Assembly (NCBI GenBank): GCA_012840075.1
Contig: DUMC01000112.1
Span: 1-64,000, forward strand
Reading direction: 5' to 3'
Origin: Clostridiaceae bacterium
Lineage (GTDB): Bacteria; Bacillota; Clostridia; Acetivibrionales; DUMC01
DNA length: 64,000 bases
Shown: one piece after another, positions 48,803-58,058 of the stretch
How positions within the stretch are numbered: position 1 is the first letter of the stretch
Layout: each line of letters starts with the position of its first letter
Position numbers and translations under genes: made by a program
The notes under the pieces: generated by a model
The model's database searches: none
What the model was told of the DNA's origin: nothing
The model's input: only the letters and a program-made list of their open reading frames with translations

Positions 48803-49483
48803 ATGGAGGTTTATATTTTAGATAACATTAAGGAAGAAGTCAGAGATGAGGAAATTTTTCAGAAATTAAAAATAGATGCGAATGATGAATATGCTTCAGA
48901 TATACTGGATCTAGCAAAAAAGGCAGAAGCAGTGGCAAAGCCTAAAGCTATATACGGTGCTGCATGCATTGATGAAAAGGATGAAAACCACGTAATCATT
49001 GAAGGAATATGCTTTACCAGTAGGTTGCTGAGCAATAACTTGAAAGAGGTTCAAAGAGTATTCCCATATGTTGCAACATGTGGAGAAGAAGTGTACAGTT
49101 GGGCAAAATCCATTTTGGATCCAATAGAACGATACTGGGCAGAAGCTTTATGCGAAATATATCTCAGTAAAGCGTATATTGCAATGAAACGCGACTTGGA
49201 GTTCAAGATGAAACCAGGAAAAACTGCGGTTATGAATCCGGGTTCTCTTGAAAGTTGGCCCATAAGCGAACAAAAACCTCTATTTGCACTGTTGGGGGAA
49301 GAAAATATAAGGAAAATAGGAGTCCAGTTAACAGAAAGTTTTTTAATGCTGCCTATAAAATCTGTTTCAGGAATTATTTTCCCAACAGAGATGAACTACG
49401 AAAACTGCATGTTATGCTCCAGAGAAAGATGTCCAAACAGAAGAGCTGAATATAATCCGGATGCATTAAAATTAAACCGTTAG
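48803..49483 (+). CDS. Stand-alone B12-dependent methionine synthase activation-domain protein
   Basis: A 226-residue protein resembling the C-terminal SAM-binding reactivation domain of MetH: RVFPYVATCGEEVYSWAKS, EALCEIYLSKAYIAMKRDLE, the MNPGSLESWPISEQKPLFALLG stretch and TESFLMLPIKSVSGIIFP. It ends with a Cys motif CMLCSRERCPNRRAEYN, found in the clostridial stand-alone forms. These proteins are thought to reactivate oxidised corrinoid on methyltransferases. GGAGGATGGG precedes the ATG. No MetH core is in the window, but a UroD-type methyltransferase lies 6 kb downstream. Confidence 0.87.
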   Translation: MEVYILDNIKEEVRDEEIFQKLKIDANDEYASDILDLAKKAEAVAKPKAIYGAACIDEKDENHVIIEGICFTSRLLSNNLKEVQRVFPYVATCGEEVYSWAKSILDPIERYWAEALCEIYLSKAYIAMKRDLEFKMKPGKTAVMNPGSLESWPISEQKPLFALLGEENIRKIGVQLTESFLMLPIKSVSGIIFPTEMNYENCMLCSRERCPNRRAEYNPDALKLNR

Positions 49484-55549: not shown

Positions 55550-56911
55550 ATGAAACCAAAAGAATTGCTTTTTAAAGTTTTAAAACACGAAGAAACAGAA
55601 AGAGCAGCATGGGTACCTTTTGCAGGGGTACATGCGGGAAAATTGGTAGGTTATAGCGCAGATGAAATTTTAAAAGACGGTGATAAATTATTTGAAGCCC
55701 TCAAAGCAGTTAATAAACTATATAAACCTGACGGACAACCCATAGTTTTTGATCTCCAGTTGGAGGCTGAATGCCTGGGGTGTGATTTGATTTGGGCGAA
55801 AGATGCTCCTCCTTCAGTAGCAACCCATCCCCTTGAGGAACAAGCAACAGTTCCATGTTTATGTACAATTCCTACGGAAGAAGACGGCCGTTTACCAATG
55901 GTTTTAGACGTAATGCGCAGAATGAAAAAAGAGGTAGGAGATACTACAGCTTTATATGGCTTAATCTGCGGACCTTTCACTTTGGCTTCTCATCTTCGCG
56001 GAAATAATATTTTTATGGATATGTATGATGATGATCAGTACGTAAAAGATCTGCTTGAGTATTGTTGCCAGGTAGGCAAGAGAATGGCTGAATATTATGT
56101 AAATGCCGGTATGGATGTTATTGCTGTAGTTGACCCCTTGATTTCACAAATATCTTCGGCACATTTTGAAGAGTTTATGCATGATCCTTTCACGGAGCTT
56201 TTTGATACAATAAGAGAATTAGGAGCATTTTCTTCCTTCTTTGTCTGTGGAAATGCTTCGAGAAATATAGAAGTAATGTGCAAGACAAATCCTGATTCCA
56301 TATCAGTAGATGAAAATGTGGATCTTGTAGCGGCAAAGAAAATTACAGACAAGTACAATATTGCAATTGGAGGAAATATACCTCTTACCTCAATAATGCT
56401 TCATGGTACCCAACAAGATAACATGAAATATGTTGTAGACCTCCTGGACAGCATAGACAATAAGAAGAATCTAATCATAGCGCCTGGATGCGATATGCCA
56501 TATAATGTGCCGATTGAGAATGCCATTGGTGTATCTCAAGCAGTGTTGCACCTTGACGAAACCCGTAAAATGGTTGAAAATTACACATCCCAGGAATTGG
56601 ACATTGATGTGGAACTTCCTGATTACGATAACTTAACTAAACCTCTTGTAGAGGTATTTACTTTGGATTCAGCAACATGTGCGGCTTGCACATATATGAT
56701 GAGGGCAGTCCTTGAGGCAAAGGAAAAATTTGGTGATGCAATTGATATTGTAGAATATAAATTTACCTTAAAGGAAAATATTGCAAGATGTAAAAAGATG
56801 GGTGTAAAGAACCTACCTTCAATTTATATTAACGGGCAGCTTAAATTTTCATCTATAATTCCAAGCAGGGAAGAGCTTGAAAAGGCAATAACTGAACAAA
56901 TGAAACACTAA
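55550..56911 (+). CDS. UroD/MtbA-type methyltransferase fused to a CxxC thioredoxin-like domain
   Basis: A 453-residue protein. Residues 1-345 form a uroporphyrinogen-decarboxylase-like barrel of the MtaA/MtbA corrinoid:CoM-methyltransferase kind (KPKELLFKVLKHEETERAAW, GPFTLASHLRG, ISVDENVDLVAAKK, GGNIPLTSIMLHGT). In that family zinc is held by His-x-Cys and a later Cys; here Cys233 (FVCGNASRN) and Cys314 (APGCDMP) are present but the His position is Phe231. Residues about 365-453 add a thioredoxin-like domain with CAAC (377-380) and NLPSIYINGQLKFSS (cis-Pro-type loop). GGAGA precedes the ATG. A CobW-type GTPase follows. Substrate unknown. Confidence 0.85.
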   Translation: MKPKELLFKVLKHEETERAAWVPFAGVHAGKLVGYSADEILKDGDKLFEALKAVNKLYKPDGQPIVFDLQLEAECLGCDLIWAKDAPPSVATHPLEEQATVPCLCTIPTEEDGRLPMVLDVMRRMKKEVGDTTALYGLICGPFTLASHLRGNNIFMDMYDDDQYVKDLLEYCCQVGKRMAEYYVNAGMDVIAVVDPLISQISSAHFEEFMHDPFTELFDTIRELGAFSSFFVCGNASRNIEVMCKTNPDSISVDENVDLVAAKKITDKYNIAIGGNIPLTSIMLHGTQQDNMKYVVDLLDSIDNKKNLIIAPGCDMPYNVPIENAIGVSQAVLHLDETRKMVENYTSQELDIDVELPDYDNLTKPLVEVFTLDSATCAACTYMMRAVLEAKEKFGDAIDIVEYKFTLKENIARCKKMGVKNLPSIYINGQLKFSSIIPSREELEKAITEQMKH

Positions 56912-57077: not shown

Positions 57078-58058
57078 ATGACAAAATTATTCTTGATTAC
57101 CGGATTCTTGGGATCAGGAAAAACCACTTTTTTGAAAAATTTTGTTAAACTTTTTCCAAAGGATGAAATTGCTATTATAATAAACGAATTCGGTAAGGAG
57201 GGGATAGATGCCAAGCTTCTATCCTCTCTTAAAATTTCTATTTCAGAAATAGTAAATGGCTCGATTTTCTGTGTTTGCAGGTTGGAACAATTTAAGCAAA
57301 CACTAAAAGAAGTTATTGAAAAACAGCCGGACATTGTCATTGTAGAAACTTCAGGATTATCAGACCCTACCGGTATCAGGGATATTCTGTCTTCCGAAGA
57401 ATTTAGGGACATTCAATATATGGGCAGCATCTGCCTTGTTGATGCTTTGAATTTAAAGAAAGTATATTCGACTGCGAGGGTATGCAAAGCACAAATAGCA
57501 ACCAGTGATATTGCGGTTATAAATAAAACCGATATTGCAAGTGCGGATGAAATTGAAAATTGCAAAGAGATTTTAAAAACACAAAAACCAAATATAAGGA
57601 TCTTTGAAACCTCCTTTGGATACATCAAGCCAGAATGGATAGATGATATGACCGAGCTGAAGCCTGATACTGATATGGATTTGTTACAAGCCGATACTGA
57701 CACAAATTCGCTTCAATATATGAAAAACGTTAAAACCCGGGACATAACTCTGCAAAAATACTTAATTTTGGTTAAGGATACTTTTACGTATCAAAGATTT
57801 ATTCAATTCATAAAGATGTTCGTGGAAGATACTTATAGAATCAAAGGGTTTGTCTCTATTGGCGGAGAAATATATTTGGTGGATTGTGTAAGCAATATGA
57901 TTAAGGTTGAAAAACATGATATAGCAGATTCAAATAACTCAAATATTGTTCCCGGTAGAATTGTTGTTTTGTCAGGTAAGGGCATGCCTACCCGAAAAAG
58001 CATCAAGGATGCAGTCAGCTTATATCACAATGATGTAATTAGTTTCATGCAAAATTAG
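57078..58058 (+). CDS. CobW/G3E-family GTPase (metal or cofactor chaperone)
   Basis: A 326-residue P-loop GTPase: Walker A GFLGSGKTTFLKN, the metal-binding loop IFCVCRLEQF (CxC in place of the classical CxCC), switch/Walker B IVIVETSGLSDP, and base-recognition NKTD. The C-terminal domain has RIKGFVSIGGEIYLVDCV. G3E proteins insert or hand over metals (Zn, Co, Ni) or cofactors to partners. It begins 166 bases after the methyltransferase gene on the same strand, suggesting that it serves that enzyme, for example zinc or corrinoid loading; inference. GAGGAAAATGAAGGG precedes the ATG. Confidence 0.88.
   Translation: MTKLFLITGFLGSGKTTFLKNFVKLFPKDEIAIIINEFGKEGIDAKLLSSLKISISEIVNGSIFCVCRLEQFKQTLKEVIEKQPDIVIVETSGLSDPTGIRDILSSEEFRDIQYMGSICLVDALNLKKVYSTARVCKAQIATSDIAVINKTDIASADEIENCKEILKTQKPNIRIFETSFGYIKPEWIDDMTELKPDTDMDLLQADTDTNSLQYMKNVKTRDITLQKYLILVKDTFTYQRFIQFIKMFVEDTYRIKGFVSIGGEIYLVDCVSNMIKVEKHDIADSNNSNIVPGRIVVLSGKGMPTRKSIKDAVSLYHNDVISFMQN

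Follow-up and report, generated by a model that had tools for sequence, protein, structure and literature searches.

A UroD-thioredoxin fusion family with phenylalanine in place of the zinc-ligand histidine: a candidate corrinoid-linked methyltransferase mainly of Clostridia

The nearest published system to the gene described in this study is the type 1 mlp cluster of Kountz & Balskus, in which the Mlp1-3 proteins almost invariably carry His-Cys-Cys and 87% of the host species have selenocysteine (Sec) machinery; neither a thioredoxin (Trx) domain nor CobW is mentioned for these clusters (PMC10418091). The same work raised the open question of what accepts the methyl group in bacteria that possess components for corrinoid methyl transfer but no folate methyltransferase in the cluster (PMC10418091). 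UroD-fold MT-I enzymes that are independent of zinc are also known, namely CdmB and the Moorella O-demethylase, and since such zinc-free enzymes exist the loss of a zinc ligand is by itself not unprecedented (PMC13222342). A further protein that might be compared is a 461-aa 'Uroporphyrinogen decarboxylase' found among the differentially abundant proteins of an Acetobacterium wieringae culture, whose length would suit a member of the family (PMC10134865).

The window analysed here, which is the whole stretch of 64,000 nucleotides of Clostridiaceae DNA, encodes a protein in which a UroD/MtaA-like barrel is joined to a thioredoxin-fold domain, followed by the gene for a G3E/CobW-family GTPase (Table 1). 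The positions that a sequence-only reading of this stretch had given for F231, C233, C314, C377 and C380 agree with the translation of the open reading frame. The nearest NCBIfam models for the barrel are MtaA/CmuA and MtbA/MtaA, and the scores of the fusion against the CoM methyltransferase models (148.2, 123.6 and 126.7 bits) are all far below the respective cut-offs (235.4, 400 and 600 bits); its score against the HemE (uroporphyrinogen decarboxylase) model is below the cut-off too (62.9 bits, cut-off 302.95). When aligned with M. mazei MtaA using phmmer, F231 stands where MtaA itself has the His of HICG and C314 corresponds to the Cys of APGC. An AlphaFold2 model of the 453-aa protein (pLDDT 93.1, pTM 0.89) had its best PDB matches in 4ay7/4ay8 (M. 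mazei MtaA), with a TM score of 0.87-0.88 over the target and an rmsd of 2.5-2.6. The appended domain had been called thioredoxin-like from the sequence, and this was upheld: residues 374-447 match Pfam Thioredoxin_3 at 27.3 bits, barely above the cut-off of 24.8, the domain matches the solved archaeal thioredoxin 1nho (E 3e-9), and the C-terminal part of the model has the strands and helices in thioredoxin order with the CxxC opening the first helix. A proline also occupies the cis-Pro position, which has a well-known role in the thioredoxin fold.

Table 1. Coordinates of the fusion gene, its domains and key residues, and the downstream GTPase gene within the window
Feature	Position	Strand	Remark
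UroD-thioredoxin fusion gene (453 aa)	55550..56911	+	ATG start, ggag-type ribosome site upstream
UroD/MtaA-like TIM barrel, residues 3-328	55556..56533	+	PF01208 (URO-D), 175.8 bits
Thioredoxin-fold domain, residues 367-451	56648..56902	+	beta-alpha-beta-alpha-beta-beta-alpha
F231-V232-C233-G234, in place of H-x-C-G	56240..56251	+	
Cys314 (TGA, very probably Sec, in 8 other genomes)	56489..56491	+	
His148, clade-specific invariant, candidate replacement ligand	55991..55993	+	127/127 vs 0/14
His28, nearly invariant	55631..55633	+	125/127
Glu255, invariant, Glu in MtaA too	56312..56314	+	
C377-A-A-C380 redox motif	56678..56689	+	C377, A378 and C380 invariant in 93 orthologs
Pro423, thioredoxin cis-Pro position	56816..56818	+	92/92 filled positions
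G3E/CobW-family GTPase (326 aa), second gene of probable operon	57078..58058	+	PF02492, 125.8 bits
NGSIFCVCR motif of GTPase, in place of canonical NGCxCC	57255..57281	+	

A scan of 85,000 species genomes gave 165 confirmed candidates, and among the best 80 loci full-length fusions at 62-77% identity were found mainly in Clostridia, with an Eggerthellaceae, a Treponema and an Izemoplasma among the other hosts in the matches listed. When the window's class was sampled evenly, about 40 of 391 genomes had the fusion; the 45 matches in this sample included a handful of Trx-less relatives at 26-29% identity. Across 93 non-redundant orthologs F231, C233, C377, A378, C380, Y382 and M383 are invariant, whereas at position 314 there are 91 orthologs with Cys and 2 with TGA. 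The absence of the zinc His that was claimed for this one protein turns out to extend to its whole clade, with Phe at position 231 in 127 of 127 members, including those that are only 35-43% identical, and His in 14 of 14 His-type relatives. The two groups are separated in a maximum-likelihood tree with an SH-aLRT value of 99. Because F231 and C233 are invariant in all 127 sequences, the alignment indicates that the loss of the His defines the family and is under selection, and the invariance of F231 rules out loss of the His by chance or pseudogene drift. Same-clade paralogs with Leu at position 231 (L-x-C...C) were observed at L193:15563-16615, L180 and L181, with no Trx partner detected nearby.

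The lost ligand may have been replaced by H148: every member of the Phe clade has this residue, none of the His-type relatives does, and in tobacco UroD the aligned residue is the Tyr of 'APFTLASYV', a Tyr that we take to be the counterpart of the active-site Tyr164 of human UROD. It is thus possible that a His elsewhere in the barrel fills the metal site. Q200 and H28 are further clade-specific residues.

An in-frame TGA at codon 314 was found in 8 genomes. In the two orthologs that have no Cys314 the TGA falls exactly there, in the context APG(U)DMP, and the frame continues into the Trx domain, while a phylum-wide search found the same codon in divergent members at 35-41% identity (L170, L171, L173, L174, L175 and L179). 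This TGA very probably encodes Sec because a full-length tRNA-Sec (72-81 bits) is present in all 8 of these genomes, compared to 54 of 391 (14%) in the window's class; the chance of finding it in 8 out of 8 is about 1e-7. The maximum-likelihood tree places the Sec members in three distinct parts of the F231 clade, and between lineages the DNA that follows the TGA shows no more than 40-75% identity. A SECIS-like hairpin after the TGA is strong in L052 (z -3.8) and weaker or unclear in the others, which is suggestive only. Stops elsewhere in the gene (TAA at residue 208 in L083, TAG at residue 145 in L156) are at non-functional sites, and those copies are probably decayed or erroneous. Recurrent Sec at a position where relatives have a zinc ligand would add a new selenoprotein family; UroD-type proteins are unmentioned in a 2026 selenoproteome review. 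For the family, selenium is an option and not the purpose, because the window has Cys at position 314, no tRNA-Sec was found in its genome, and the Cys-type members are not enriched for tRNA-Sec. Within the class, 3 of the roughly 40 genomes with UroD-Trx and 51 of the other 351 carry a tRNA-Sec (Fisher p 0.33), and a link of the family at large to selenium metabolism was rejected on this basis.

The thioredoxin is not always fused. In the divergent members L185, L188, L190, L192 and L193 the UroD ORF ends and is followed by a separate small ORF with LDS-x-x-C-A-A/P-C-x-Y, and where the Trx is encoded apart its gene likewise has the CAAC motif; L189, known from a single genome, has numerous broken frames and was given no weight here. 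Fusion in one lineage and adjacent genes in another is a classical sign of cooperating parts. The best reading of this arrangement is that the thioredoxin would be an obligate partner of the UroD barrel. The Sec-type UroD of the L187 and L188 clusters has several small ORFs of the Trx kind around it, together with two GTPases of CobW type and three corrinoid proteins.

The GTPase is an almost constant companion. Among the 88 loci with room for it, 76, the window included, have a GTPase gene in the same orientation that begins within 400 nt downstream of the UroD-Trx gene. Ordinary G3E GTPases have the canonical metal motif NGCxCC (GCxCC). In the partners of this family it reads NGSIFCxC in nearly all of the 57 in which a motif search found NG, so that the CxC pair is kept, and they are perhaps a GTPase subfamily with another metal preference.

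The wider neighbourhood points to corrinoid chemistry. In 50 loci of more than 12 kb, the GTPase was found in 48, an MtaC/MtgC-like corrinoid protein in 30, a RACo-type activase in 25 and a BioB/PylB-like radical SAM protein in 16; this last protein adjoins UroD-Trx/CobW at L037:6929-7951 and in 15 other long loci. PocR-type regulators, DUF1638, DUF2284 and DUF5714 also recur. MtmB-type genes (PF05369) are neighbours in L185, L189, L198/L177, L199/L162, L201, L101 and L085, and MttB-type genes (PF06253) with a corrinoid protein lie near the gene in L209, L210 and L211. In L207:2506-9132, PylS (catalytic part), PylB, PylC and PylD, all over the NCBIfam cut-offs, are directly upstream of UroD-Trx, which is followed by CobW and then an ammonium transporter and a PII-like protein; this is the one locus with a complete pyl operon near the family gene. 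The MtmB/MttB-type, pyl and corrinoid-protein neighbours link the family with corrinoid-dependent transfer of methyl groups, in many cases from amines. It should be noted that MT-I genes are beside UroD-Trx in a minority of loci. The contexts vary, with ABC (SsuA-like), LacI and BCCT neighbours; a BCCT transporter is close to the gene in L208, and genes of matching position and size make one probable in L212 and L213 as well. Separately, the PF05369 MtmB-family genes L185:4767-6167, L198:6967-8388 and L201:4173-5612 have no in-frame stop and match no NCBIfam model, and the encoded enzymes may act on substrates other than monomethylamine.

The Sec/split clusters of L190 and L193 also hold MtrH, an ordinary MtaA-like UroD, a corrinoid protein and RACo, and because of this MtrH and ordinary UroD the enzyme cannot be the sole MT-II there. 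Lipoyl GcvH-related proteins, lipoyl synthase and dihydrolipoyl dehydrogenase are encoded in the same two clusters. The combination of a Sec-type UroD, a separate Trx, and lipoyl GcvH-related and DGC-domain proteins was seen in L190, L192 and L193, and these clusters might serve methyl transfer linked to lipoate.

Beyond the recurrent partners, the other operon neighbours are diverse and have no transporter or enzyme in common, and the deduction of a substrate from them was dropped for that diversity. In type 1 mlp clusters two or three Mlps (Mlp2 and Mlp3) are expected together; among these other neighbours URO-D was found in 4 of the 73 scanned. A role in phage defence was also set aside, with no PADLOC match.

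The genome of the window itself has the parts for corrinoid transfer, though none of them adjoins the fusion gene. This genome has 30 URO-D genes but one stand-alone corrinoid protein, which is MtaC-like, adjoins a PocR-type regulator and lies on a contig other than that of the fusion gene. It has one RACo and a single Pterin_bind protein, presumably FolP. A search of this genome found no MttB-type enzyme, and no MetH-type B12-binding or pterin-domain protein besides the MtaC-like protein and the presumed FolP. The window also encodes a stand-alone protein of 226 aa with the vitamin-B12-dependent methionine synthase activation domain (48803-49483, + strand).

We tentatively favour a model in which the enzyme is a methyltransferase linked to a corrinoid protein, takes the MT-II place, uses a rebuilt Cys/Sec site and has thioredoxin as its partner. 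In this model a corrinoid protein of the MtaC/MtgC type would be charged by an amine- or betaine-type MT-I (MtmB, MttB families) or by other donors, and the enzyme would exchange the methyl group with it. The active centre would be a rebuilt soft site made of Cys233, Cys/Sec314 and probably His148 and/or Glu255, into which the co-encoded CobW-type GTPase would load a metal, the metal being suggested solely by this GTPase neighbour. The fused or neighbouring thioredoxin would deliver, re-reduce or accept a sulfur partner through its CAAC dithiol, and this route would replace the free coenzyme M of MtaA/MtbA. Sec314 and the presence of a Trx partner speak for thiol chemistry at residue 314; the GTPase speaks for a metal.

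Chief among the alternatives is a thiol/selenol redox centre that needs no metal, which we judge somewhat unlikely. Here Cys233 and Cys/Sec314 would form a dithiol/disulfide (or selenenylsulfide) pair that performs a reductive step in methyl metabolism, for example on an oxidised or S/Se-bound methyl substrate or on a corrinoid intermediate, and that the fused thioredoxin returns to the reduced state. In enzymes of the MtaA type both Cys bind zinc and hence lie close together (PMC10418091), zinc-free UroD-fold methyltransferases have precedent (PMC13222342), and the invariant Phe in place of the zinc His, the retention of the Trx partner even when unfused and the lipoyl-related genes of L190/L193 all agree with this. 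The recurrence of Sec at one of the two Cys is typical of redox-active residues; however, Sec can be a metal ligand too, the conserved CobW/G3E neighbour suggests a metal, and the clade-specific H148 and invariant E255 resemble ligand or acid-base residues.

An ordinary zinc S-methyltransferase, in which His148 (or His28) replaces the His lost at position 231 as the third ligand and the Trx is a mere accessory reductant, is unlikely. The strict restriction of H148 to the Phe clade and its alignment with the UroD active-site Tyr, the near invariance of H28 and the sharing of E255 with MtaA would fit such an enzyme. However, the Trx partner, the CAAC and Sec314 are too conserved or recurrent for a mere accessory, and a shift of the His would put the ligand on another wall of the barrel.

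The sequence-only reading had proposed that the CxxC domain supplies a thiol ligand, accepts the methyl group or makes the site redox-controlled. Its general idea of a thiol/redox role holds in spirit, since the recurrent Sec at 314 and the occurrence of Trx as a separate adjacent gene argue that thiol/redox chemistry is essential. The more literal version, that the CAAC thiols enter the barrel to complete a metal site or are themselves methylated as the terminal acceptor, seems to us very improbable. The CAAC is invariant, and the two-domain model, which is confident overall (pTM 0.89), suggests a defined domain arrangement, but a permanent ligand is less likely when the Trx is a separate protein in split members, and S-methylation of a Cys of the CxxC would lead nowhere unless a persulfide or a comparable carrier took part. 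More improbable still is a selenium-specific system for selenide demethylation or methylation as proposed for type 1 mlp clusters, even though the related Mlp2 methylates selenide (PMC10418091) and some members appear to be selenoproteins themselves, because tRNA-Sec in the UroD-Trx genomes is not above the background of the class and the genome of the window has none.

Returning to the favoured corrinoid-linked methyltransferase, a stronger claim, that a Cys/Sec pair, a built-in thioredoxin and a metal-chaperone GTPase replace the zinc His-Cys-Cys/coenzyme M arrangement and so define an undescribed class of corrinoid methyltransferase, is possible but doubtful. If true, it would provide a folate-independent MT-II for methylamine- or betaine-type methyl groups in anaerobic bacteria, including those of the gut, and the UroD-Trx family is a concrete candidate for answering the question of the methyl acceptor. 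The enzyme is present in about a tenth of the sampled genomes of the class, many of them gut anaerobes. The architecture, suspected from the outset to be undescribed, is conserved, and no description of a UroD-Trx fusion was found in the open papers searched.

Compared with known systems, the family shares with MtaA/MtbA/MtsA (TIGR01463, NF040654, NF041608) the UroD fold (TM 0.88 to M. mazei MtaA), the C-G and APGC motifs, the two thiolate residues, E255, H93 and a corrinoid protein partner. Unlike these enzymes, the fusion has Phe for the zinc His, its own thioredoxin domain, a CobW partner and, in some members, what is very probably Sec. Mlp1-3 are likewise bacterial MtaA-like UroDs with a corrinoid protein and RACo and usually no folate MT-II in the cluster (PMC10418091), whereas this family has Phe-Cys-Cys/Sec, Trx and CobW and no association with Sec. 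CdmB and the Moorella O-demethylase combine the UroD fold and a corrinoid protein with the lack of a canonical zinc site, as here, but they act as MT-I, have no Trx and have no Cys/Sec pair described (PMC13222342). MecC/MecE/MecI of the dichloromethane mec cassette also belong to the UroD family and are accompanied by a corrinoid protein and a regulator containing a PocR domain, but they are 337-343 and 288 aa long, have no Trx domain and belong to another gene set (PMC9768040). The downstream GTPase has the same PF02492 and CobW_C as COG0523/G3E GTPases (CobW, ZigA), but it has NGSIFCxCR and not NGCxCC and scores far below both cut-offs. The C-terminal domain and the Trx genes of split members match the small thioredoxins MJ0307 and MTH895-ArsE (Thioredoxin_3), but here they occur together with a UroD barrel, either in one chain or as a paired gene, and have YM after the CAAC.
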